A model generated the notes under the pieces. It ran no database searches, was not told the origin of the DNA, and saw only the letters and a program-made list of their open reading frames with translations. The position numbers and the translations under genes are program-made. From contig JAJZJR010000007.1 of NCBI GenBank assembly GCA_021810045.1, positions 1 to 64,000 of the forward strand: 64,000 nucleotides of DNA, in the 5' to 3' direction. Positions 17,395-39,509 of this stretch are shown here, one piece after another. Origin of the DNA: Thermoplasmata archaeon (GTDB lineage: Archaea; Thermoplasmatota; Thermoplasmata; Thermoplasmatales; Thermoplasmataceae). Each line of letters begins with the position of its first letter. Position 1 is the stretch's first letter.

Positions 17395-17466
17395 GGGCCG
17401 GTAGATCAGAGGTAGATCGCTTCCTTGGCATGGAAGAGGCCTGGGGTTCAAATCCCCATCGGTCCA
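17395..17466 (+). tRNA. tRNA-Ala (anticodon GGC)
   Basis: A full cloverleaf can be drawn: acceptor strand GGGCCGG pairs with TCGGTCC, including the G3:U70 pair that marks alanine tRNAs; D stem GATC/GATC; anticodon stem CTTCC/GGAAG with loop TTGGCAT, anticodon GGC; T stem TGGGG/CCCCA with loop TTCAAAT; discriminator A. CCA is not encoded. A TATATT-like box (AATATTTATAGG, 17340-17351) lies upstream. The 3' end, from 17451, is the attachment site of the element, and the integrase gene ends inside it on the other strand. Confidence 0.95.
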
Positions 17467-18338
17467 TCTGAGATGTACCAGGGTTTAGAAGATTTGAACC
17501 CTTTTCCCTCTCTGTAAAACTTTACGTTTTTCTTCATAACACGCTCCAATGCCTCTCCAGTGTCAAGCTCTGCATAAATGCCAGTAGTCTGCAGATCTTC
17601 GTGACCCAGCATTTGACGGAGGGTTTCGAGATCTACATCGTTCCTTAACATGTTCTTTGCATATGTGTGACGGCATTTGTGCCAGGCAAATTCATTGATG
17701 CCAGTTTTCTGTTTGATGTCAGCGGCCAGTTTTCCCATATAATATTCGGAAATGGGCCCGTTCTTTGTTGTGAAAACATGAGGGCATTCCTGGTGGTTCC
17801 TCACCTTCAGGTATTCACTTATAATGGACCTTGTTTCCTCATCGATGTAGACATCCCGATCTTTTTCCCCTTTTCCGTCAACTACTGTAAGATAATATCT
17901 GTGAATGTCTGCAACTTTCAATCTGGCAATTTCCCCTCTTCTCAACCCTGTGTTTAGGGCTAACAACACCATTGCATGGTTCCTCCTGTCCTCTATTGTG
18001 GGTCCGATAGTTCTGGAAACTATCTGCTTCACCTGATCGGCGTCAAATGCTTTCTTTCTGAACGATCTGGCCTTGAGTTCAGGCAGGTATTCTATCTTGT
18101 CTTCTCCTCTTGATTCAAGCCACCTGTTTAGATACTTGATGTATCCATTGATTTTCTGCTTGGTAGATCCGTTGCGACGTTCCAGCCTCAAGAATCCCAT
18201 GATTGCTTCCCTGCTCTCTAGATCCATCCTTTTCTCGAAAAATCTCATTTTGGACATTGTTCCACGGATTGTTGATTTGGCCATGCCCCTGGAATAAAGC
18301 CAGTCCTCAAAATCAATGAAATCAGTTATCACTGTCAT
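17448..18338 (-). CDS. Tyrosine integrase (XerA/XerC-like)
   Basis: Site-specific recombinase of 296 residues. The N-terminal SAM-like core-binding domain spans residues 1-85; the catalytic domain carries Arg133 (TGLRRGE), Lys156 (DGKGEKD), His220 and Arg223 (HKCR), His246 (LGH) and Tyr255, the complete catalytic set. Its last codons are written by the tRNA 3' end and the stop codon (17448-17450) falls just past the attachment core, in the tRNA T loop. In the excised circle the frame would instead continue for 16 codons (see findings). It is the last gene of a 12-gene operon and overlaps its upstream neighbour by 17 bp. Confidence 0.93.
   Translation of the reverse strand: MTVITDFIDFEDWLYSRGMAKSTIRGTMSKMRFFEKRMDLESREAIMGFLRLERRNGSTKQKINGYIKYLNRWLESRGEDKIEYLPELKARSFRKKAFDADQVKQIVSRTIGPTIEDRRNHAMVLLALNTGLRRGEIARLKVADIHRYYLTVVDGKGEKDRDVYIDEETRSIISEYLKVRNHQECPHVFTTKNGPISEYYMGKLAADIKQKTGINEFAWHKCRHTYAKNMLRNDVDLETLRQMLGHEDLQTTGIYAELDTGEALERVMKKNVKFYREGKGFKSSKPWYISDGPMGI
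17451..17467 (+). repeat. attL, 17-bp direct repeat inside tRNA-Ala
   Basis: AATCCCCATCGGTCCAT. It covers the end of the T loop, the 3' strand of the T stem, the acceptor strand and discriminator of the tRNA, plus one base. The copy at 41546-41562 differs at one position (T to C at base 9). This copy completes the functional tRNA and so, by the usual logic of tRNA integration, came with the element. Confidence 0.88.
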
Positions 18339-23407: not shown

Positions 23408-23749
23408 TTAAGTTTCCTCTTCGTCCAGTATAACAGCAATTCCACCACTCATCACTGCGACAAAAAACCAGGTCATTCCTGCCATAAAATTACTTAAAGC
23501 AAGAATGTCAATAATTCCATTTGCAGCAGGAATAGAAAATACTTCAAAAGCGGCAAGGAGACTGATAAGAGAAACCCCACCAAGAATGTGTTTTAGTTTA
23601 AGATGAAATCTGTCGTCAATTTTTCTGAATGGATATCTGGCACTTCCGGGTTTTGTGAAGTTCGGTTTTGGTGCGGCCACTTGTTTTGTTCTTCTTTTTT
23701 TCACAGATCCTTTGTTCTTGTTACTTTTCTTTGTTTTACTGCTGGCCAT
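23408..23749 (-). CDS. Two-segment membrane protein with basic N-terminus, 113 aa
   Basis: From ATG 23749 (MASSKTKKSNKNKGSVKKRR) the first 50 residues are strongly basic; two hydrophobic helices follow (ILGGVSLISLLAAFEVFSI and FMAGMTWFFVAVMSGGIAVIL) and a short acidic end. The start overlaps the ATPase gene by 14 bp, as its neighbours do. No family recognised. The basic tail inside the cell might contact nucleic acid during assembly or transfer. Confidence 0.75.
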   Translation of the reverse strand: MASSKTKKSNKNKGSVKKRRTKQVAAPKPNFTKPGSARYPFRKIDDRFHLKLKHILGGVSLISLLAAFEVFSIPAANGIIDILALSNFMAGMTWFFVAVMSGGIAVILDEEET

Positions 23750-25805
23750 CTCTCTTCCTCCTGTTCTCATTAGTCTTCAGAACGTGGCATTCATGGCATA
23801 ATGACTGCAGATTATCAAGATCAAATTCAGGCCCGTTTTCCCATATTTCCTTGATATGATCCACTTCCTCAGCTGGTTTTCCACATTTCACACACCTATA
23901 GTTGTCACGTTCCAGGGCGTTTGATCTGATATCATTCCATTTCACTGATGTGGGATGGTTACTGTAAAACTCTGTTTTACAATCATCAGAACAGTAATAC
24001 AACTGGTTTCCCGTGAGTGTTTTGTCACAGTTAGCACATCTTCCAGTTTCCATGGCCTTTAGCCTTAACTTCAGAGATTCTTCCTGCAGCTCCGGAATCT
24101 GCTGTGACCATTTTCTTTTCCTGGAAGCTTTCTCAGAAACCCTGTTGATGTCTACAGCAGGTATCTCAGTGTTCATCAGCTCCCTGAAACGTGTTTTGAG
24201 TTCCGGGTCTGATTCAAGAGCCTTCATTTTGTCAGGATCTGATACAACATCCATGAAGAAGTTGATGGCATCAGCTGCAAGATCTTCAGCTACTTCAATG
24301 GGGTTGACTGATGGATCCACCGGATTGTGTCCAGAAAGATCTTCATTATGAGTATTTAAAACGGGGGTGACACCTCCAGGAATCTGGCCAGAATTTTCTT
24401 CATGTCTCATACCCCTATACCCCTCACTCATGAGATCGGAGCTTTCATCAGAATTTCCTTGCACCTCAGATTTCTTCTTCAGTTCAGGGCTTGCACCTTC
24501 GTTTGCACTATAATGCACCTTGAAGTTTTTCTTGCACTTTGAACACTTTGCCCATTCACCTTCCTTGTAATACCTGTTTGGAGTCCATGTCCATATGAGG
24601 CCATCGTTCTTTGGACAGTCTAAATGGTGCAATGGAAGAGGTTTCTTCTTTTCCTTATCTTCCTGCTCCTGAGGTTCCGGTTCTCCCTTTTCCGGAATCT
24701 CCCTGTCAAGATACTTGAATTTCTTGTTGGTGAACCAGTAGGGATCATGTGTTCTCTTCAGGTTATTCACATAACGTTCATAGAAGCGGTAAATCCTCGC
24801 TGTATCTCCCTGGGCTTCTGATTCGTGCATGGACATGTAATCATTCATTGCCTGGGGATCGAGATCCCATATCCAGCTTCCAGGTGAGGCAGTGTTGTAA
24901 TATTTTGTCATATCAGGGATATTCTGGAACGTGATGGGCCATTCATCACCAAAGGTCACGAATTTGCCCTCTGCCTTGTTCACCGTTCTTGGATTCTTGT
25001 ATATCTCCACATATCTGAGAGACTTCTGCATCTTGATTGTTTCATCACCGGTCTGCATCAGCCTGATTGTTGTACAGCCGAAGTGTCCGGATCTCACAAT
25101 CCAGCCATTGGCCCATTCTGCCTCCAGGGAATTGGATCTCATGTTGTTGGCTCCCCTGGTTGTCTGTTCATCCAGCACTAAGAAAAATATGGCTTCAGGT
25201 TCTTTGTACCTGACCTGCAGCATGTACAGGAGTGCTTCCCTCAATCCATGGGCTTCTGTGTAGTAATCCTTTAAGGGACCATCCTGAGTGGTTGGAAAGA
25301 ACATGGGGAAACTTGTTATGACATGGATCTTGTTTGCCATTGCAGCTCTGGCCAGATACACCACGAAGTTGTTCTTTCCTGATCGCATTGGTCCGATGAT
25401 TTCAACAAGCTTTCCCTGCATCCAGGGACCGAGACCATATTTGAAGTGCCAGGTAAAATGCATTATGTCCCTGAAGGAGTTTCCATTGTTTTCTGTATCA
25501 CCCTGATCAAGTACAGCCCAGGTTGAAAGTGAATCCTGGTTCTGCTGCATGAAGGATGTCATTTCCTGCTGCCTGAATCTGGAGTGTGCAAGCTCGACCA
25601 GTTTTCGACCTGATTCCGTCAGTGTCTGTCGGTTGATGAGGTTCCTGAAGACGAATTCAGTTTCCCAGTCTTTTATGGAAAACAGAGACCGGTCAACAGG
25701 GTATTCCTCCTTCTGTTTTTCCCGTTCTTCCTTGATGATGTCTCTTCCAACACCACCGGAAATAACACGGAGCATCTTTCTCCAGTCTGAATCACTGTTG
25801 GCCAC
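23736..25805 (-). CDS. P-loop ATPase fused to zinc fingers and an HNH nuclease
   Basis: Protein of 689 residues, GTG start with GAGGCGG upstream. Residues 130-215 hold an ATPase of the FtsK/HerA or Zot-like class: Walker A GPMRSGKN (138-145), where the usual Ser/Thr is Asn, and Walker B AIFFLVLDE (205-213). The middle has a CxxC zinc pair (KCSKCKKNF), then a low-complexity stretch; the last 110 residues carry a CANCD...YCSDDC zinc finger and an HNH nuclease (CVKCGKPAEEVDHI...DNLQSLCHECHVLK). This is the module's motor: likely genome packaging or transfer, with the HNH cutting DNA. Confidence 0.8.
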   Translation of the reverse strand: MANSDSDWRKMLRVISGGVGRDIIKEEREKQKEEYPVDRSLFSIKDWETEFVFRNLINRQTLTESGRKLVELAHSRFRQQEMTSFMQQNQDSLSTWAVLDQGDTENNGNSFRDIMHFTWHFKYGLGPWMQGKLVEIIGPMRSGKNNFVVYLARAAMANKIHVITSFPMFFPTTQDGPLKDYYTEAHGLREALLYMLQVRYKEPEAIFFLVLDEQTTRGANNMRSNSLEAEWANGWIVRSGHFGCTTIRLMQTGDETIKMQKSLRYVEIYKNPRTVNKAEGKFVTFGDEWPITFQNIPDMTKYYNTASPGSWIWDLDPQAMNDYMSMHESEAQGDTARIYRFYERYVNNLKRTHDPYWFTNKKFKYLDREIPEKGEPEPQEQEDKEKKKPLPLHHLDCPKNDGLIWTWTPNRYYKEGEWAKCSKCKKNFKVHYSANEGASPELKKKSEVQGNSDESSDLMSEGYRGMRHEENSGQIPGGVTPVLNTHNEDLSGHNPVDPSVNPIEVAEDLAADAINFFMDVVSDPDKMKALESDPELKTRFRELMNTEIPAVDINRVSEKASRKRKWSQQIPELQEESLKLRLKAMETGRCANCDKTLTGNQLYYCSDDCKTEFYSNHPTSVKWNDIRSNALERDNYRCVKCGKPAEEVDHIKEIWENGPEFDLDNLQSLCHECHVLKTNENRRKRDGQQ

Positions 25806-28261: not shown

Positions 28262-28371
28262 TTTCTGTTCCTCTTTGGTTTGAATGCCATCACGTCGCCG
28301 TTGCCTTTCACAAATGCAAAGTATCCCTTGGGAACCTGCACCTTACCGATCTTTTTTGCTTTGTCTTTCAT
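28258..28371 (-). CDS. Basic microprotein, 37 aa
   Basis: Frame MKDKAKKIGKVQVPKGYFAF, then a Gly/Asn turn and a basic tail ending KPKRNRK. It fits exactly between the PKD gene and the coiled-coil gene, with 4-bp ATGA overlaps on each side; such double coupling is unlikely by chance. The YFAFVKGNGDVMAF middle looks like a beta hairpin. Function unknown. Confidence 0.68.
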   Translation of the reverse strand: MKDKAKKIGKVQVPKGYFAFVKGNGDVMAFKPKRNRK

Positions 28372-31300
28372 CTTTTCTTACCTCTGCTCACTATTTTCAA
28401 TGGTTTACCCGGTTTTCCTTCCAGTTTTGTACCGTTTATGTCGATGACCTCTTCCCCGTGTCTTGTTACTCCGTAAACTGTGGCAATTGTACCTACTGCT
28501 GTGAGAATGATCAACCAGAAATTCATGGGACCTCCAAGGGCTGTCACAAGGTTAAAACCGGATTTCCCAAATGTCGAGGAAACTGAGAATTTCAGGGAAG
28601 TGGAATTGCTCTGGCTCTGGTTGTTGAATGCAATTACTGTTATGCCGTATGTACCTGGCTGATAATCCTGCTGATTCACTGTAAAATTGTATTCTACTGT
28701 AGATCCGTTCTCACTTACCAGAACAAGAGGAAGAGACTGAGAACCAAGGAAAGCTTCTACTGCTGATATGCCGTTCTGAGAATGAATTGTGATACTGTAG
28801 TAAACATGCGGTCCTGAAGTGGTGCTTGAAGAACTGAATGTGATTGTTGAATTGGTTCCGGTGTGCAAGGCCTGAACATTGATTGTGTTTGTGGAAGAAG
28901 CACCAAGGGCATCCTCAACTGTCAGGGTTATGCTGTAATTTCCTGTTCTGTTGAACTGGAAGAACTGATCCTGGCCTGAATAAGTGTGGCCATTGAAGCT
29001 CCAGGAATATGAGATAATGTTGGAATCATAGCTGTAGGATCCTGTTCCGTTAACTGCAAGTATTGTACCAACCGGGATTACTGAAGGGATGCTTGAAATT
29101 ACTGGAACCGGTTTGGATGGTATCATCCTTACTTCAAGAGTTGTGTTTATTTCGTGACCTGCATATGTGAACTGAAAGATGACAGGGTTGAATTCCTGGT
29201 AAACAGGGAATTTGTATGAAACATTCAAACCCTCAAGCTTCTGGCCATTTGGGAAGAACCAGGTTCCATTGTCTGTACCCTGAGAATCCCAGTTGGGTGT
29301 TGCTTTGAAATGAACAGTTGTCAGGACTGTGATTGCTGTACCGGGTGTATATGTAATGCTGACAGGATAAGGCAGGGACCTTACTGTTATGTTTGCAGTT
29401 CCGGTTGCTCCATTGCTGGCTACAACCTGGAGAACAACACTGTAATTGCCTGGTGAAAATGTCTCACCGGGATTCTGTGCAACCGATGTGTTTCCATTGG
29501 CAAAATTCCAGTGATATGCGTAACCGGAACCTCCGAGAACATCTGCGAAGAACTGTTCCTGCAGTGGAGCAAGACCGGAAGGCGTACTGTCACTTACTGT
29601 AACATAAAGATCAACATTGACGGTGAAATTATAGGTACCACGGAATCCGCCTGCATCCCGAACCACAACCTGGTAAGTTTCAGGACCTGATGATTCGAAG
29701 ACGTGTGTGATATTAAGGCCTGATTCCTGCTGACCATCGGGGAAGATCCACTGAACTTCATATGCAGGAATGCCACCGCTTATGGTTGCGTTGAGGCCAA
29801 ATGATTGTGAAACAACTGCTTTTCCATCCTGTTTTACACTTACTGCAGGATCTCCGTGTACATTTACTGTAAGAGTTGATGTTGCATCTTTCCCAAAGGA
29901 ATCTGAAACAATCAGTTGAACCGTGTAATTCCCCGGATCGGTAAAGGAATGGGAAACGGTGTTGCTTGAATATTCCTGGCCGCCAATTATCCACTGGTCG
30001 CTGAATGGACCAATACCTCCAAAAGAAGAGGCCCTGAATGTTTCCGAAACATTGGCATCAATGCTGTTTCCGGAGTAGATGATGGAAGCTTCCGGATATG
30101 ATGATACCGTGATATCTGTAACATAGGATGCAGTTTCACCCTGAGAATCCTTCACATCCAGAGTCAGGCCGTAAACACCAGGTGCTGAAAATGAGTAATT
30201 CAGTGAGCCGGATATACCAACAAGACTTGATCCAATGTACCAGGAATAATTGAAACCAGGTGTACCACCTGTTATGACGGGATTGAATGAATCCGTTACA
30301 TTGGGATCGATGTTGGAATATGTTGCATTTATGAGCGCTTCAGGAGGATTGTTTATCCTCACATTCAGGGAAGAAGTGGCAGAGTTGCCGGAGCCATCGT
30401 ATACAGTGACAGAGACAGTGTAATTTCCTGCCTGGGAAAATGAATATTCCATGTCCTGCTGATATCCAACAAATCCAATTCCGCTAACTGTCCAGGAGTA
30501 GTTAAAGAATGGATCTCCACCGGATACTGATGAATTGAATCTTACAGGAATTCCAACATCAGTTACGATCTTTGAGAGACTTATTGATACCTTTGGAGTG
30601 GGAACCACTGAAATATCAAGGTAAGCTTCAGCCCTGGCACCCTGACTGTCCTGAATGATTAGAGTGATGTTGTAATTTCCCGCCTTCGGGAAAGTATAGG
30701 ACAGATAAAGGCCGGAAGTGGTGTTAACTCCGTTTATGAACCAGAAATAACTGTAAGGTTCTGTTCCGAATGATCCATATCCTTCCCAGTATGTTGTTGT
30801 GCCAACATCGGTTATGTTTGAACCTTCGATGAGGGCTGAAGGTTTCTGGATTACTTTCACTTCAAATGATGTGGATGTTGTAGAACCGAGAGAATCCCTG
30901 ACTGTCAGATTTATTTCGTAAGTTCCAAGGCTGGTGAAGTTGAGATGGAACTGCTGGGAATAATTCAGGATGCTGGAGCCCAGGGACCAGGTATAGTTGA
31001 AAGGTGAAGACCCACCGGTAACATCTGCAAAGAAAGTGTCATTGATTCCCTGGTCAACGGTTGTATATGTGGCCTGAACCGAGACTTCAGGAAGCGGGTT
31101 TACAACTTCCTGCATTGAAGCAGAAGCTTTGTTGCCGTTCGAATCCACAATAACCAGGGTAATCTGGAATGTCCCTGGAGCTGTGAAGGTATAATTAACA
31201 TAAGATGTGCTGAAAGTCTGGCTATTTACAGTCCAGGTATAATTGTAACCTGGAGTGCCACCTGTGATTGATGCGGTGAAATTAGACCAGATTCCTACGT

Positions 31301-33119
31301 CAGTTGGGCTGTGTACCGCATGTATCAGGACGGAAGGATCCGGGTTGACTGTTTCCACAAATGAAGCAGAACCAATGTGAGAATCTCCATCAGTGACTGT
31401 GAGATTGACATAGTAATTTCCGGCTTTGCCGAATGAATATGAAAACTGGGAGGCCGTTGATTGCTGCACCCCATTTATGGTCCACAGGTAAGTGTCAGAT
31501 CCGGTGCCTCCTGAAATTGAAGACTTAAAAACAACAGAGTTTCCGGTATCTGTTGGACTCTGTGATGAGATTATTGAAACAGAGGGATTTGCGTTGATGT
31601 TTACAGTAACGGAAGATGAGTAAGTTTTCCCAACAGAATCTGTTATGGTAATGGTTGCGGTGTATGAACCAGATGAACTGAAAGAATGGTAGAAGTCCTG
31701 GGATGTGGAAACCTGCTGGCCGTTGAGAACCCATGAATAGGTGTATGGTCCTACTCCTCCACTTGGTGAAGATGAAAATTCTATGGGATACCCGACATCT
31801 GCACTGGAAACATTGGAAGATGCTGAAACAGTAGGAGCTGAGTTGACAGTTTCTGAATAGCTCTTTGATACGCTATAACCTGCAGCATCTGTGACAGTAA
31901 GATCTGCAACGTATGTTCCCGATGAAGCGAACGAGACGTTAATGTCCTGAGTACTGTAAGAATTGCCATTTATGGACCAGGAATAAGAATAGCCAGGTGT
32001 ACCACCGGACACAGAGGAAAGAAATTCCACTGTATTTCCTGCATCTGTGGGATTTTGTGTTGAGGATATGGACACAGAAGGATCTACGTTAACAGTCTGA
32101 GTTATAGTTCCAGATTGCGCAGTTATTCCATTGCTATCAGTGACAACTACATAGATTGTATAAGATCCACTGTTAGTAAAATCATATGACAGTTGACTAC
32201 CAGATCCGGAAAGAACTGAACTGCCATCCATGTAAAAGTTGTAAGTGGGATATGTTCCGGACCCACCACTTGGATTGGCTGTAAAAATAACACTCTGTCC
32301 TAAATCACTGGGGTTCTTGCTATCTTCAAGACTAACAGATAAAGCTGATCCAACCGAAATTGTGACATCCTTAGTTATTGAATAGCCAGCACTATCCTGG
32401 AATGTCAATGTGAGAGTGACAGATCCTGTAGCTGATGGTGTCCAAGTGGGGTTTGATACAGTTGTTGAGGAAAATGAACCAGATGTGGAAGACCAGGAAT
32501 ATGAATAAGATCCAGTTCCACCGGAACCTGAAGCAGTCAATGATATGGAATGTCCCAAATCAGTTGATGTGGATGAAGCAGATACTGAAACAGTTGGATC
32601 ACTGTATACCGTTATACTTACCTTACTGCTGTATCCTGTTCCATCAGATGCCTCTGCCGCAAGTTGAGCCTGGTATGTTCCTTTCGAACTAAAAGTGTAA
32701 GAGGCGTAGATATTTGGAGAGTTATAGTAAATTGAACTTGAGGCGGTATTACTCCATACTGTCTGTTGCGATCCTGAAGGAGTCCAAATCCAGAACCACC
32801 ATCCAAAAGGAGAATGATTTCCGTTACTGTATGGTACCAGCTGTACAGATGTAGTTTGTCCCTGGTCGTATTTGTAGGAGAGACCTCCCATTTCCATGAT
32901 GTTTGCCCAGTCGTTGCTGGATTCTGATGCATATAAATTTGGATTGCCACCAGTTCCCACATAAGGACTTGAAATTCCCTGGTGAACCTGATTTGGGCTA
33001 TACTCTGCGAGGAAAATTATTGAAGAGCCAAATATTGTCACAAAAAGAAATGTTGCAAGGATGAATGCAGTCTGTACTTTCTTTTTATTATCCCTAAACT
33101 GTTCCTTCTTTACATTCAT
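28368..33119 (-). CDS. Giant PKD-repeat surface protein, 1583 aa
   Basis: An N-terminal membrane helix or uncleaved signal (residues about 13-33) is followed by about 1480 residues outside the cell, made of some 14 PKD (immunoglobulin-like) repeats. Typical marks recur about every 85-90 residues: SPTDxG or VDxG openings, GGTPGYNYTWTV strands, SFSxSGxYxxxLTVTD closings. Near the C-terminus a membrane helix (WLIILTAVGTIATVYGV) leaves a basic cytoplasmic tail ending RGKKR. Many NxS/T sites suggest glycosylation. It is likely the adhesin or spike of the module. The first three repeats differ in base usage (more A+T) from the later ones. Confidence 0.85.
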   Translation of the reverse strand: MNVKKEQFRDNKKKVQTAFILATFLFVTIFGSSIIFLAEYSPNQVHQGISSPYVGTGGNPNLYASESSNDWANIMEMGGLSYKYDQGQTTSVQLVPYSNGNHSPFGWWFWIWTPSGSQQTVWSNTASSSIYYNSPNIYASYTFSSKGTYQAQLAAEASDGTGYSSKVSITVYSDPTVSVSASSTSTDLGHSISLTASGSGGTGSYSYSWSSTSGSFSSTTVSNPTWTPSATGSVTLTLTFQDSAGYSITKDVTISVGSALSVSLEDSKNPSDLGQSVIFTANPSGGSGTYPTYNFYMDGSSVLSGSGSQLSYDFTNSGSYTIYVVVTDSNGITAQSGTITQTVNVDPSVSISSTQNPTDAGNTVEFLSSVSGGTPGYSYSWSINGNSYSTQDINVSFASSGTYVADLTVTDAAGYSVSKSYSETVNSAPTVSASSNVSSADVGYPIEFSSSPSGGVGPYTYSWVLNGQQVSTSQDFYHSFSSSGSYTATITITDSVGKTYSSSVTVNINANPSVSIISSQSPTDTGNSVVFKSSISGGTGSDTYLWTINGVQQSTASQFSYSFGKAGNYYVNLTVTDGDSHIGSASFVETVNPDPSVLIHAVHSPTDVGIWSNFTASITGGTPGYNYTWTVNSQTFSTSYVNYTFTAPGTFQITLVIVDSNGNKASASMQEVVNPLPEVSVQATYTTVDQGINDTFFADVTGGSSPFNYTWSLGSSILNYSQQFHLNFTSLGTYEINLTVRDSLGSTTSTSFEVKVIQKPSALIEGSNITDVGTTTYWEGYGSFGTEPYSYFWFINGVNTTSGLYLSYTFPKAGNYNITLIIQDSQGARAEAYLDISVVPTPKVSISLSKIVTDVGIPVRFNSSVSGGDPFFNYSWTVSGIGFVGYQQDMEYSFSQAGNYTVSVTVYDGSGNSATSSLNVRINNPPEALINATYSNIDPNVTDSFNPVITGGTPGFNYSWYIGSSLVGISGSLNYSFSAPGVYGLTLDVKDSQGETASYVTDITVSSYPEASIIYSGNSIDANVSETFRASSFGGIGPFSDQWIIGGQEYSSNTVSHSFTDPGNYTVQLIVSDSFGKDATSTLTVNVHGDPAVSVKQDGKAVVSQSFGLNATISGGIPAYEVQWIFPDGQQESGLNITHVFESSGPETYQVVVRDAGGFRGTYNFTVNVDLYVTVSDSTPSGLAPLQEQFFADVLGGSGYAYHWNFANGNTSVAQNPGETFSPGNYSVVLQVVASNGATGTANITVRSLPYPVSITYTPGTAITVLTTVHFKATPNWDSQGTDNGTWFFPNGQKLEGLNVSYKFPVYQEFNPVIFQFTYAGHEINTTLEVRMIPSKPVPVISSIPSVIPVGTILAVNGTGSYSYDSNIISYSWSFNGHTYSGQDQFFQFNRTGNYSITLTVEDALGASSTNTINVQALHTGTNSTITFSSSSTTSGPHVYYSITIHSQNGISAVEAFLGSQSLPLVLVSENGSTVEYNFTVNQQDYQPGTYGITVIAFNNQSQSNSTSLKFSVSSTFGKSGFNLVTALGGPMNFWLIILTAVGTIATVYGVTRHGEEVIDINGTKLEGKPGKPLKIVSRGKKR

Positions 33120-34012: not shown

Positions 34013-34483
34013 TTAATTTATAAATTTCCTCCTGTGTGCAAAGGCTGCATCCGCGATCATGACAATCACAAAGGCAAAGATTGAAAACAGGAAATACAGA
34101 GCTGCAGGATTGCCTGACATTGCAGCAACCACCACGTACTGGCCGAAGTTGAACTCATATCCAAGGAAGCCTCCAAAGATCAGGCCAAGTATGTACCCTA
34201 TGACTGGCCTTACAATGAGATCAACAATGCCTTTGGCTCCACGTGTGAACAATTCTATGATTGCCCATATTGATATACCAAGAACAAGACCAGGTGTGAT
34301 GGTACTCTGATCCAGAATGAAGGTGTGGCCTTCAACTATGTATGCTGGTTTTGAAAACAGCGATATTGTGAGAACTCCAAGAGAAATCAGTGACACAATG
34401 ATTATGCCGATTCCCTTTTCATCGCTGAATTTCCTGAAAGATTTCATCTTTCCTGTACTTTTCTTTGTTTTTGTAACGCTCAT
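34013..34483 (-). CDS. Four-helix membrane protein, 156 aa
   Basis: Basic cytoplasmic start (MSVTKTKKSTGKMKSFRKF), then hydrophobic helices at about 25-43, 63-80, 90-110 and 122-146, ending HRRKFIN. The layout (small, four helices, both ends basic) is like internal membrane proteins of pleomorphic archaeal viruses, a resemblance in architecture only. ATGA overlap with the gene before it. Confidence 0.72.
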   Translation of the reverse strand: MSVTKTKKSTGKMKSFRKFSDEKGIGIIIVSLISLGVLTISLFSKPAYIVEGHTFILDQSTITPGLVLGISIWAIIELFTRGAKGIVDLIVRPVIGYILGLIFGGFLGYEFNFGQYVVVAAMSGNPAALYFLFSIFAFVIVMIADAAFAHRRKFIN

Positions 34484-35181
34484 TCTTTTTTCCTCCCAAA
34501 GTCAATATCATAAAAGATCCCAGCCACAGCTGCAAGACCAAAAATCACTGTTCCACCGAACACATAACCAATCTCCTCAGCTGTGAGTGGCCCGAAAATT
34601 GTGTGCAATCCATTGTCACCAAATACCTGGAATGAGAGACTGTATGCAGTGTTGTTGGAAATGAATTCAAACATAAGATCCTGGGACTGGTTGCCAGTGA
34701 GATACTGCGGTGAAATCACGTAGTCTGTTTCTGAAACATTGAATGATGAAACTGATAACACCGGAATGAAATTGGATGAGTTTGTACCGAACCCGACTTC
34801 CTCTGTTATGTTACCCGAATAAGCAAGATCCAGGACAAGCTTGTTTACAGAGAAATCGTTGAGTTCTCCCATTGTTAGGTTTGTCTGAACAAATGAAATC
34901 TGCTGGTTGTATGGCATATCATATGATACAGATATATTGCTCTGGCCAAATGGTATACCTGATCCAGTTTCATTGTAGATGTAAAGGGCATTGGATTCAC
35001 TCGATAGAACAACACTTGTATGGCCGTCTGCGGTTGCTGCACCAAGAGTGGCAAATGCAGGTACACTTGCGAATGCCAAAATTACAAAAATGATCAGAGC
35101 AATGAAGAACCTGCGACCCTTTCCTTTGGCTGTCTCACCCTGCTGGGCTGGCTGTTGCGGTTTAATTTTCTTTACTGCCAT
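34480..35181 (-). CDS. Membrane-anchored outer protein, first gene of the module
   Basis: Protein of 233 residues: basic start (MAVKKIKPQQPAQQGETAKGKGRR), membrane helix about 28-47, an outer domain of about 155 residues rich in Asn and Ser with several NxS/T sites, and a second helix near the C-terminus (YVFGGTVIFGLAAVAGIFY) ending in a basic tail. GGAGGAAG precedes the ATG but can be locked in a hairpin (see leader). It opens a run of 15 tightly packed minus-strand genes. Confidence 0.72.
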   Translation of the reverse strand: MAVKKIKPQQPAQQGETAKGKGRRFFIALIIFVILAFASVPAFATLGAATADGHTSVVLSSESNALYIYNETGSGIPFGQSNISVSYDMPYNQQISFVQTNLTMGELNDFSVNKLVLDLAYSGNITEEVGFGTNSSNFIPVLSVSSFNVSETDYVISPQYLTGNQSQDLMFEFISNNTAYSLSFQVFGDNGLHTIFGPLTAEEIGYVFGGTVIFGLAAVAGIFYDIDFGRKKE

Positions 35182-35425: not shown

Positions 35426-36178
35426 GTGTTTATCTTTATTGATAGTGAAGTATATTTGTCGCTTAAAAATAAAAGAATAGCTACAATCTTGGCTGCAATC
35501 ATCGTTGCTACAATCATCGTTGTTTCTGGTACATTCTATATAAATCATCTCATAGAAAGCAAGCACCTACCCTCATTCACTTATTCCGGCGGATATGCAA
35601 ATTACACTTGGTCTGAAAATTTTTCAACCTATGCAGGTTACATGAAAAACCTAAACTCAACTTTGGAAATCAATCAAGGTAATCAGAGCAGTTCCTCCTT
35701 GCAGATTTCGATGTACAGGATTGGATATAACAGCTTTCAATACAGTGTCGGGCCAATTATGAATTTATACCTGAACCTGAGTGGAAATTTTTCATCAGTG
35801 CTTCGTCCACGATCTATGAATTTCACAGAGATTACATCAGGCATTGGAAAAACATCCGATCCGCATTTCTGGGACTCAGGAAGTATGAATCCTGTTAACC
35901 CCACAAACATGACTCTTTCAAGTACTTCAAACAAAATGACCTTTTTTGGGAATTCCACCCAAACAATGTATTTTACCGCAAACTTTATCAATGAAACCAC
36001 TAAAAATAGCCGATACAACTTCTCAATTAATTATATGGACGTGGAATTCCTGTTTCCAAGTTTTCTAGTTTCTAACAATAGCATAGATCTCAGTTTCAAT
36101 ACAACAATTTATGGGTTATCCAAGACAGTCAGCCTTCAGGCCAACATAGTGATGAGTTACACTGATCTATCAGGATGA
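35426..36178 (+). CDS. Membrane-anchored glycoprotein-like protein
   Basis: Read from GTG 35426 it has 250 residues: membrane helix (IATILAAIIVATIIVVSGTFYI) near the N-terminus, then an outer domain with more than fifteen NxS/T sequons and no cysteine. The true start may be TTG 35456, since a TTTAAATAA box lies at 35411-35419, too near for the GTG. Base use is visibly more A+T-rich than in the minus-strand module. Unknown family. It sits 8 bp before the Hint protein and probably shares its transcript. Confidence 0.7.
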   Translation: MFIFIDSEVYLSLKNKRIATILAAIIVATIIVVSGTFYINHLIESKHLPSFTYSGGYANYTWSENFSTYAGYMKNLNSTLEINQGNQSSSSLQISMYRIGYNSFQYSVGPIMNLYLNLSGNFSSVLRPRSMNFTEITSGIGKTSDPHFWDSGSMNPVNPTNMTLSSTSNKMTFFGNSTQTMYFTANFINETTKNSRYNFSINYMDVEFLFPSFLVSNNSIDLSFNTTIYGLSKTVSLQANIVMSYTDLSG

Positions 36179-36186
36179 ACTGAAAA

Positions 36187-38418
36187 ATGAAATTAGAATC
36201 GAGAGATCATTTAAGCAAGAAGTCTTTTTCAGTAGCCTCTGCTACTTTAGTTCTTTTTGCCTCTTTTGTTGTATTAGCTACTTTTGCGGCATTACCAGTC
36301 GCGCATGCTGCGACTCCTCCGATAAATCCAGTAGATTGGCAAGGGTGGAATGGCAATAATACGGTATACCTTACTACAGATTTTGGAGGATTTAACCATC
36401 AACTTAGACATATGGATAACATAAATAAATCAGGGACTACGACTACTCAAATTGACTCACACATATTGAATGTTTCATCAGGGAACTCAAATTATGAAGA
36501 CTCTACGTTTGATGGGATATCCCTTGGACTGGGTGCAATTGGCTCTGTTAATAACCTTTCGGCAGATAACTATAGTGAAGGTTTCACATATACTCCATTT
36601 GGGAATTCTATTATAATAGCAGTGCCTTATTCTGTCATAGGATTTGCTCAGAGCTTAAATTCTGTGGGGGCTGCATACCCAGTATCTCACGTAAACATTT
36701 CAGCTTCTATAAGTGGTTTTTCTAACGGGACTCAAGGGACATTTGTTGACAGGCAGGTTTTCGCCAGTTATGCAACAGGTTATAACATTTCAACAGTGGA
36801 AAACTCCACAGCTGGATTGAACCAAGCTTACTTAGAGTGGCTCAGTGGTAGTTCACTTGTAGCAGGTGCACTTTCTATTTATACTAGTGCTTACCCCCCA
36901 ATCTCTGCAGTTTTAGGATATTACTCTCTTCTTTCAGGGGCTTATCTTTCGTTCCTAAATTCTAATGGTAATAACTACCCGATTTTTTCTGGATTAAATA
37001 CAACCTATGATGGAACGGTATTTGAAAACGCATCTGTTACAAATGGGAATTACACTCAAACCCAGAGTGGGACCAATACTGTCGTAAATTACAATAATAC
37101 GTTTGCAGCAGGAGGTTATATGGTTTTTGCCCTTAATCAATCCGATTTTACAGAAACAGGCTCACTTCAGTTGCGTGCGAATAATATAATTACTGGATAT
37201 GCAGGGAGTCTAGAAAAGGGGGCTTCTGCTACACTTAACATACCTATTGTGCCTGCCTATAATATTAAGGGAACTGCTTACATAAATGGACAAGTAGCTA
37301 AGAATACTACCCTATTACTTGAAAATGATACCACCCATTATTACATAAAAACAAATTCAACTGGACAATACCAATTCTTCGGCGATCCAGGTCAAGAGTA
37401 TTTTCTCACTGACCCATCAATAGCCATTGGAGGTGTGCAGATTTTTACTCCTTCTGATACCAGTGGAGGAACATATAACTTATATTCGACAACTCAAAAT
37501 TTCTCAGAAAGCGGCTTGCCTAGTGGTACTAATTGGTCAATCGGATTCTCAGGTCCAGAGCTCCCATCAGGAAATCCGGAATTTTACACAGGTTACAGTA
37601 CTACTTCGACACTATCAGTTTCTATTGCTGGGAATGAAAGCTATGAGTACACAGTCAATGCCCCATCAGGATATACTGCAAGCATAACAAGTGGAAATTT
37701 GAACATTGGAACCTCCACACCCTCAACAATTTCTATTTCCTTCACTCCAACACCTACGTATACAGTTACTTTCCAAGAATCTGGGTTACCATCGGGGACT
37801 GAATGGAGTGCCAAGTTGGATGGTGTTCAGCATAGCAGCACATCCTCCACAATAACGTTTTCTAGTGTTCCGGCTGGTTCAACTACTTGGTCAGTCCCCT
37901 ATGTATATTATTCGACGACTTTATGGTATGAACCTACTAATGGAGGAGGTTCTTTTACTCTTAGTGGAGCTAAAACAATAGATGTTACTTTCACAGGTGT
38001 GCCACAGAGTACTATATCATGTGTATATGCACTGGCTCCTGTGCTCTTATCAAATTATACAACCCAATATGCTCAGAGTATAAAGGCCGGGGATAACATC
38101 ATGACATACAACTTCTCAACAGGAACTATGCAACAGGGCACAGTACAACAGGTGTTCATAACTCACCACACCGAAATGTATGTAATAAACGGTTACCTAA
38201 AAGTAGCAGGAGATCAGGATATCTGGACGAACCATGGGTACATTCAGGCACAGAATCTCACAAGTAATGACACTATCTATAACGTCTTTGACAGCCACTA
38301 TCACAGAGTTCATTCAGTTTCGGTAGAATACGGCAACTTTACCATGTACGACTTTTATGTAACTGCAAATCACAATTACATCGTTTGGTCGAATCTCATG
38401 CAGGATCGGTTGCCATAG
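36187..38418 (+). CDS. Secreted surface protein with C-terminal Hint (hedgehog/intein) domain
   Basis: Protein of 743 residues. A signal peptide (VLFASFVVLATFAALPVAHA, about 22-41) is followed by a large Asn/Ser/Thr-rich beta domain, then two units with the FxESGLPSGTxW motif common in Thermoplasmatales surface proteins. From Cys612 (SCVYALAPVLL) to the end lies a Hint domain: KAGDNIMTYN, then block-B-like DQDIWTNHGYIQAQNL, then MYDFYVTANHNYIVW like intein blocks F/G. The terminal His-Asn of true inteins is absent, so cleavage at Cys612 rather than splicing is expected. A+T-rich like the gene before it. Confidence 0.8.
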   Translation: MKLESRDHLSKKSFSVASATLVLFASFVVLATFAALPVAHAATPPINPVDWQGWNGNNTVYLTTDFGGFNHQLRHMDNINKSGTTTTQIDSHILNVSSGNSNYEDSTFDGISLGLGAIGSVNNLSADNYSEGFTYTPFGNSIIIAVPYSVIGFAQSLNSVGAAYPVSHVNISASISGFSNGTQGTFVDRQVFASYATGYNISTVENSTAGLNQAYLEWLSGSSLVAGALSIYTSAYPPISAVLGYYSLLSGAYLSFLNSNGNNYPIFSGLNTTYDGTVFENASVTNGNYTQTQSGTNTVVNYNNTFAAGGYMVFALNQSDFTETGSLQLRANNIITGYAGSLEKGASATLNIPIVPAYNIKGTAYINGQVAKNTTLLLENDTTHYYIKTNSTGQYQFFGDPGQEYFLTDPSIAIGGVQIFTPSDTSGGTYNLYSTTQNFSESGLPSGTNWSIGFSGPELPSGNPEFYTGYSTTSTLSVSIAGNESYEYTVNAPSGYTASITSGNLNIGTSTPSTISISFTPTPTYTVTFQESGLPSGTEWSAKLDGVQHSSTSSTITFSSVPAGSTTWSVPYVYYSTTLWYEPTNGGGSFTLSGAKTIDVTFTGVPQSTISCVYALAPVLLSNYTTQYAQSIKAGDNIMTYNFSTGTMQQGTVQQVFITHHTEMYVINGYLKVAGDQDIWTNHGYIQAQNLTSNDTIYNVFDSHYHRVHSVSVEYGNFTMYDFYVTANHNYIVWSNLMQDRLP

Positions 38419-38529: not shown

Positions 38530-38769
38530 CTATATTTTTTCATGGTCTCCATTTTTGAGTTTATATTTCTTAACACCTGTCCTGGTGATTTCATCCATTG
38601 GTAAGTGGTTAGCATGAAAGGCAACCTGTGCAGCCGAAACATCTTTTTTCCAAAGCAAGAATATTGTTTTGGATATCTGTGAAGCTCTCATATGACATTG
38701 AAATTTTTCGAACACACCGATGATCAATGCATCAACATCATCCTTACTGATCTGAAGCTGTTCCATCAC
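38530..38769 (-). CDS. Small helix-turn-helix-like protein, 79 aa
   Basis: Starts MMEQLQISKDDVDALIIGVF and contains RASQISKTIFLLWKKDVSAAQVAFHANHL, which could be a winged helix. The ATG overlaps the recombinase stop (ATGA), so it is the last gene of a three-gene operon. It might be a directionality factor or repressor for the recombinase; this is inference from context only. Confidence 0.6.
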   Translation of the reverse strand: MMEQLQISKDDVDALIIGVFEKFQCHMRASQISKTIFLLWKKDVSAAQVAFHANHLPMDEITRTGVKKYKLKNGDHEKI

Positions 38770-39509
38770 TTGCTCCTCTTCTTCTGATCTTCAGAATTCA
38801 AAACCTGTTTTCCCTCATCTTTTTGGTGTCCGTTAAAGACTTCTTTACTGGATTGTTTCTCATCGAGTAGGGGGTTTATATACTCAGGATAGGTTTTTTT
38901 CATGGGGGGTTTTCCGGACAAAATTCTGTGAACAGAAGACCTCTTCATGCCAACCTGTTCGGAGATCTGTCTTATTGACATATTCTGGTCCCTGAGTTCG
39001 AAGATCCGTGGAATCCGATCGGGAAATCTCTCTTCCAGGGATTTTCTCCCATTAACTTTCTTTTCAGGGTCCTCACCCTTGACCCTGTTGATGCCATCCC
39101 TAACTCTTTCACTGATGAAATCCCTTTCAAGTTCTGCAACACCCGATAGTATAACAAGCATAAATTCTGTCAAAGGTTCTCTCTGTGGTAATGCCCTTAT
39201 TCCCTGGTCAATGGCTTCAAAGAATAATCCTCTTGATCTGATTTCAGTTATGTTGGCCAGCAGATCTCTGACAGATCTTCCAAACCTATCAATTCTCAAA
39301 ACCACAACACCGCTGTAAAGGCCCTTTCTGACATCTTCCATCAATCTTCTGAGTTCAGGCCTGTTACTGTTCCTGGTGGATACTTTCTCCTGGTAGACTG
39401 AATATTCCCAACCGTGAGCCTCACAGTAAGGTATCAGTTTAAGCAGCTGGTTTTCAGTGGTCTGATGTTTGTCCTTGGTTGAGACCCTTGCATAGATTGC
39501 AACTCTCAA
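38766..39509 (-). CDS. Serine recombinase (resolvase/invertase family)
   Basis: Protein of 247 residues. The catalytic domain starts MRVAIYARVSTKDKH with nucleophile Ser10; conserved Arg residues appear in VVLRIDRFGRSVRDL; ELERDFISERVRDGINR is the long dimer helix; RQISEQVGMKRSSVHRIL is the C-terminal helix-turn-helix. This is a small resolvase/invertase, not the large integrase type. In the element it may resolve multimers of the circular form, or invert a segment. A hydrophilic Lys-rich tail of about 45 residues follows the DNA-binding domain. Confidence 0.9.
   Translation of the reverse strand: MRVAIYARVSTKDKHQTTENQLLKLIPYCEAHGWEYSVYQEKVSTRNSNRPELRRLMEDVRKGLYSGVVVLRIDRFGRSVRDLLANITEIRSRGLFFEAIDQGIRALPQREPLTEFMLVILSGVAELERDFISERVRDGINRVKGEDPEKKVNGRKSLEERFPDRIPRIFELRDQNMSIRQISEQVGMKRSSVHRILSGKPPMKKTYPEYINPLLDEKQSSKEVFNGHQKDEGKQVLNSEDQKKRSK

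Follow-up and report, generated by a model that had tools for sequence, protein, structure and literature searches.

The histidine of block B is the most conserved residue of inteins, and only two inteins without it were known in 2014, according to the accessible text of PMC4031507. A gene on an archaeal contig raises the question of what a Hint domain might still do when this histidine is replaced and its nucleophile is kept. The gene lies within a stretch of 64,000 nucleotides from a Thermoplasmata archaeon (contig JAJZJR010000007.1; the whole stretch is called the window here), and the original prediction had read it as a surface protein with a C-terminal Hint autoprocessing domain. The open reading frame at 36187-38418 on the + strand is genuine and encodes 743 amino acids. 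The features of this gene and of the gene preceding it were assigned as follows.

35426-36178, + strand: upstream partner gene, about 240-250 aa, with one predicted N-terminal membrane helix and an extracellular domain
36187-38418, + strand: gene encoding the secreted protein (743 aa) that ends in the Hint domain, its ATG starting 8 bases past the partner stop
36187-36312, + strand: signal-peptide-like N-terminus, residues 1-42, the sole strongly hydrophobic segment of the protein (cleavage site judged by eye)
36313-37506, + strand: N-terminal secreted region, Pfam-negative and common to related Hint proteins
37507-37536, + strand: ESGLPSGTNW unit, residues 441-450
37777-37806, + strand: ESGLPSGTEW unit, residues 531-540
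38020-38415, + strand: Gln-type Hint domain, residues 612-743, the last 132 residues, running to the stop codon
38020-38022, + strand: Cys612, Hint position 1, the only Cys in 743 residues
38086-38094, + strand: AGD turn, residues 634-636
38206-38208, + strand: Ala674 at the block-B Thr position
38215-38217, + strand: Gln677 (CAG) at the block-B His position
38350-38352, + strand: Asp722, block-F aspartate (Asp in 20/24 of the clade described below)
38404-38406, + strand: Asp740 at the place of the His-Asn of the His-bearing clade (an acid there in 23/24)

The motifs named in the original prediction were located in the sequence, namely Cys612 after a small residue (Ser611, giving a Ser-Cys junction in the window protein), the AGD turn, NHNYI (residues 728-732), the two ESGLPSGTxW units ahead of the Hint domain and the lack of a final His-Asn. 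Judged by this architecture, the 743-residue protein is clearly built as a secreted or surface protein ending in a Hint-superfamily domain. Its N-terminal 603 residues found matches in 77 of 101 related genomes, mostly via the ESGLPSGT-type region, which indicates that repeats of this type are generic in these archaea.

Does the C-terminal region belong to the Hint superfamily? In Pfam, the C-terminal 140-residue slice matched PT-HINT with E=0.00028 and Intein_splicing with E=0.00044, neither reaching its gathering score, and alone it reached the PDB entry 2lwy with E=0.029; a search of the 743-residue protein against NCBIfam gave no match. A family profile (A1) built from 20 domains matched the PDB sequences of 2lwy (E=1.1e-11), then the DnaX mini-intein 7cfv (E=5.7e-10) and further inteins, so that a significant profile match, whose absence had been named beforehand as the adverse outcome, was obtained. 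The AlphaFold2 model of the domain, computed from a 7-row alignment, has low confidence (pLDDT 58.7), and the first 34 rows of a Foldseek search with this model were all Hint proteins, with E of 0.0095 or weaker. Since the model is too weak for active-site geometry, the fold assignment rests mainly on the sequence profiles, by which residues 612-743 are firmly predicted to form a Hint-superfamily domain. Cys612 supplies the Cys or Ser expected at position 1 of the superfamily, and the Thr-x-x-His of catalytic Hint domains (inteins, Hog) is absent, with Ala674 and Gln677 in the window protein. The alignments to both 2lwy and 7cfv put the His column on the Gln of the family motif 'gdq' (Gln677) and the Thr column on Ala674, and the His of 'TNHGY' falls outside the block-B His position. 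Thus, of the Hint landmarks originally listed, the fold stood up to profile comparison and the block-B histidine did not, this position being Gln or Glu across the whole clade.

We collected the relatives of this domain to see the replacement in its family. The single window domain matches 23 of 101 related genomes, and profile A1 finds matches in 29 of 117 order-level and 43 of 389 phylum-level genomes; the relatives with named records are Thermoplasmata MAGs. The genome of the window itself (2,258,164 bases, 81 contigs) holds one further Hint copy (C41:297193-297612), which is 63% identical. The fetched loci gave 109 distinct domain matches, of which 89 were left after removal of short (fewer than about 95 profile positions) and nested ones. 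Sorted by block-B residue and position, these comprise 34 domains with Gln or Glu that end at the stop codon, 52 with His and 3 others. Among the Gln/Glu domains 29 of the 34 span the full length and 24 were left after filtering to below 80% identity, and the His group was reduced to 51; because the Gln-type group is partly defined by Gln/Glu and C-terminal position, its counts are conditional on that definition. In a tree computed without the block-B column (125 columns, 83 rows, quick search), a single branch sets off all 29 Gln/Glu rows, and the group so separated contains no His row; the support of this branch is 38, and that of the adjacent branch, which adds three inteins, is 90. As the tree lacks the block-B column, its support for the grouping is independent of the defining residue. 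By tree and residue pattern, the Gln-type domains are established as a distinct predicted Hint clade in Thermoplasmata, drawn from the window's order and close kin.

Apart from this clade, very long open reading frames with back-to-back strings of Hint domains were observed in distant Thermoplasmatota (L143, at G191:C62, 1-8932, and also L142, L128 and L113). They reach 2927 aa, open at the contig end; most of their domains carry Thr-x-x-His and His-Asn, and the next Cys1 follows within a few residues of each His-Asn. Three domains belong to neither group. Two come from G161 (L114, L115) and combine a position-1 Gly with a block-B Gln; the third, from G277, has Gly and Leu at these positions. 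The G161 domains are an independent loss in another lineage, and in the G161 and G277 domains the loss of the active site took Cys1 as well, unlike in the Gln-type clade, which keeps it.

The active site of the clade is altered in a consistent manner. In the non-redundant sets the block-B His position is Gln in 23 and Glu in 1 of 24 Gln-type domains, and His in all 51 other Thermoplasmatota domains; the Gln is encoded by both codons, CAA and CAG. Position 1 is Cys in 21/24, Ser in 2/24 and Tyr in 1/24, compared with Cys in 49/51 of the His group. No conserved Lys, Arg or His that might replace the block-B His was found in the clade, where the sole basic-rich column is 741, in the tail. The block-B Thr position holds Ala, Ser or Thr; in five of the 24 members, including the window, it is Ala and the Thr is lost, and all five also lack the Gly before Cys1 (Fisher p=0.0013, uncorrected for kinship). 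This Gly directly precedes Cys1 in 16/24 of the clade versus 4/51 of the His group (Fisher p=2.4e-7, likewise uncorrected for kinship), and a poly-Gly linker often precedes the domain. The C-terminal His-Asn is found in 0/24 Gln-type domains versus 37/51 of the His group, and an acidic residue, Asp or Glu, occupies the His or the Asn position in 23/24 versus 6/51, against a background of 0.159 per two residues. Each of the 24 domains stops 9-15 residues past the position of I732. There is no C-extein after the domain, and the C-terminal signature of class 1 inteins, an Asn, Gln or Asp directly ahead of a C-extein Cys, Ser or Thr, is absent. The hedgehog- or BIL-like layout originally proposed, with Cys at the junction and neither C-terminal His-Asn nor extein, was borne out by these features.

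The Gln-type Hint domain is under purifying selection. The values of dN/dS for pairs of domains are 0.009/0.365, 0.027/0.251, 0.060/0.457 and 0.108/0.918, and pairs with measurable dS give ratios near 0.02-0.15. The domain is joined to unrelated secreted proteins, which fall into seven groups by blastp linkage; one of these, at L040:6670-8940, is a sedolisin/kumamolisin-like protease (activation domain PF09286, 2e-22) that ends in GGGGG-Cys-Hint of the Gln-type. In the G024 paralogues (L085 and L087) the Hint domains are 94% identical (dS 0.25), the hosts being 43% identical with saturated dS, which suggests that the Hint domains may have been exchanged or converted between the paralogues. No Cys other than Cys1 occurs in 10 of the 26 full-length Cys1-bearing open frames, including that of the window, counting frames from stop to stop, some of which may be incomplete; an internal disulfide is therefore not the explanation there. 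The host regions contain 6.5% Asp+Glu in the Gln-type group versus 12.4% in the His group. Broken copies also occur, and 10 of 44 order-level Hint matches carry internal stops.

The original prediction mentioned neither the upstream partner gene nor the Gln shared across the family, nor that Cys612 is the sole Cys. The probable true start of the partner is TTG at 35456 (by eye), with an AT-rich TATA-like stretch just upstream, and its hydrophobic segment spans 15-43. A partner of the same family lies upstream on the same strand at 9 Hint loci. Plain hmmsearch missed the window partner, and its membership rests on hhalign with controls (98.5% with a score of 102.6, compared with 20.1 for the runner-up among 48 window ORFs and no more than 18.1 in 50 shuffles). 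The partner family is present in 27 of 117 order genomes, and none of 13 extra partner loci mapped, out of 16 retrieved, contained a Hint domain in the stretches covered; an obligate pairing of partner and Hint was accordingly rejected. Clustering of neighbours revealed no common enzyme gene beside the Hint loci except the partner and DUF929. Three loci from a different host group (L042, L129 and L131) instead have a DUF929 gene with a GCPIGA motif directly after the Gln-type Hint gene, the L131 copy being apparently split into two open frames.

The wider window contains a phage-type integrase gene that abuts tRNA-Ala (GGC) at 17395-18338, and a serine recombinase gene (PF00239) at 38766-39509 that faces the Hint gene from downstream. 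The suggested location on an archaeal element is plausible in view of the integrase at the tRNA-Ala (17.4 kb) and the adjacent recombinase, but a direct repeat of the tRNA-Ala region marking an attachment site was not found within the window. A viral or phage origin was considered and rejected, as no relative was found in viral contigs (41 pattern matches, 0 confirmed) and the whole protein had no tblastn match to phages. Other genes observed in the window encode a 689-aa protein with an HNH nuclease motif at its end (23736-25805) and a 1583-aa protein containing about 15 PKD domains (28368-33119); small genes lie near the latter, one of which (34480-35181) has a weak match to TrbC pilin.

What could such a domain do? 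Our tentative preference is that the Gln-type Hint domain is a C-terminal autoprocessing module whose active site does without the His and may be adapted to acid. It would act as a one-step module of the hedgehog or BIL-B type, in which Cys1 attacks the preceding peptide bond to form a thioester that is then resolved by water, by a thiol or lipid, or by the adjacent partner protein, so that the N-terminal surface protein would be released or attached and the Hint domain left behind. The His could be dispensable, we propose, because the reaction would take place outside the cell in acid, where the freed amine is protonated and the bond thereby pulled toward the thioester. The scissile bond would be held in place by the Gln, and the proton would come from the C-terminal acid lying near Cys1 in the fold. 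In the hedgehog Hint domain the two termini are separated by about 6 Å according to the accessible portion of PMC9163320, which would bring the conserved C-terminal acid near Cys1.

Chemical N-to-S acyl transfer has been run at pH 2-5.8 and prefers Gly-Cys, and Gly-Cys was hydrolysed at pH 1, as stated in the available text of PMC3277902. By this analogy, acid could plausibly stand in for the block-B His, and the Gly-Cys junctions of the clade fit the preferred junction; the chemical reactions proceed slowly and are carried out warm, so a contribution from the fold would still be needed. Thermoplasmatales are described as acidophiles in the accessible part of PMC10354927, we infer an acid habitat for the window organism from bin names, low charge and kin, and the low Asp+Glu content of the hosts fits acid exposure. 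It is conceivable, though unlikely in this full form, that the self-processing domains of this clade, in archaea living in acid, rebuilt the Hint active site around Cys1, the fixed Gln and the C-terminal acid. Together these would perform the N-to-S acyl shift in strong acid, and secreted proteins would thereby be set free or, on wall-less cells, linked to a lipid or to a membrane-anchored partner.

A serious possibility, too, is a Hint fold without autocatalysis, kept as a C-terminal cap or as a binding or anchoring domain, in which Cys1 would serve for a mixed disulfide, S-acylation or a metal. The clade has lost the block-B His as well as the C-terminal His-Asn, and purifying selection is compatible with a role other than catalysis. 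In the hedgehog domain, which requires its His, H329A is inactive and T326A strongly reduced (accessible text of PMC9163320), so cleavage by a Gln-type domain cannot be assumed. The clade members that look active have Ser or Thr in block B and Gly before Cys1; the window has neither, which places its Hint copy (Ala674, Ser611) among the more altered members by alignment, and its subgroup looks as if it had drifted from activity. The Tyr at position 1 of one member counts against autoprocessing, the many remnants with stops count against stable use, and the GCPIGA-bearing DUF929 gene beside three loci could mean thiol chemistry. An inactive fold, on the other hand, does not account well for Ser, the usual substitute nucleophile, at position 1 of two members, for the enrichment of Gly-Cys junctions or for a block-B position fixed as Gln without drift.

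It is improbable that the domain does not act on itself and is instead a mobile C-terminal cassette moving between secreted proteins, recognised as a sorting tag by another enzyme: the seven host groups and the apparent exchange or conversion in G024 would suit such a cassette, and the lack of a common adjoining enzyme gene argues against it, even if an unlinked enzyme could serve. A decaying ex-intein or functionless Hint domain is very improbable, for the broken copies, common as they are, stand beside intact ones with low dN/dS, near-invariant positions and an end within the same narrow range in 24/24. Least probable is a pretoxin Hint of a polymorphic toxin system, to which the best Pfam match of the slice and a gene pair resembling toxin and immunity would point, since the toxin follows the Hint domain in such systems (available text of PMC3482391) and the short tail here leaves no toxin to release.

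No description of a Gln-type clade was found in the literature on Hint domains and inteins of Thermoplasmata, in a search that most subscription papers lay outside, and we regard its novelty as provisional. Without the block-B His, yet with nucleophile and selection kept, the clade offers a natural test of the role of this residue. If active, it would provide a His-free cleavage or ligation domain working in acid, useful as a tool, and possibly a means for wall-less acid archaea to process their surface proteins or attach them. An inactive domain would instead be a self-cutting fold tamed into a reusable C-terminal module.

Among known systems, the pretoxin Hint family (PT-HINT, PF07591) gives the highest single Pfam score of the slice, and differs in the toxin that the Gln-type lacks. 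The hedgehog Hog domain is alike in its C-terminal position after a secreted part, a common Gly-Cys junction, and the lack of His-Asn and C-extein. However, its TxxH, essential according to the accessible text of PMC9163320, is missing in the Gln-type, and the 9-15 residues from position 732 to the end leave no room for a sterol-recognition region. The class 1 intein Tko CDC21-1 still activates its N-terminal junction without a block-B His, as the available portions of PMC4031507 and PMC7664689 report; it uses a Lys, whereas the Gln-type has no conserved Lys and no C-terminal splicing residues, and a compensating Lys of that kind was rejected because no basic column is conserved except 741 in the tail. 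The BIL domain 2lwy of C. thermocellum is the best solved relative by profile and is alike in Hint fold and block layout; it carries Thr and His in block B, in contrast to the Ala/Ser/Thr and Gln, and the missing C-terminal His-Asn, of the Gln-type. The nearest sequences found outside the clade are the 51 His-bearing Hint domains of the same phylum, Thermoplasmatota, which have the block-B His in 51/51, the His-Asn in 37/51 and further protein after the domain.
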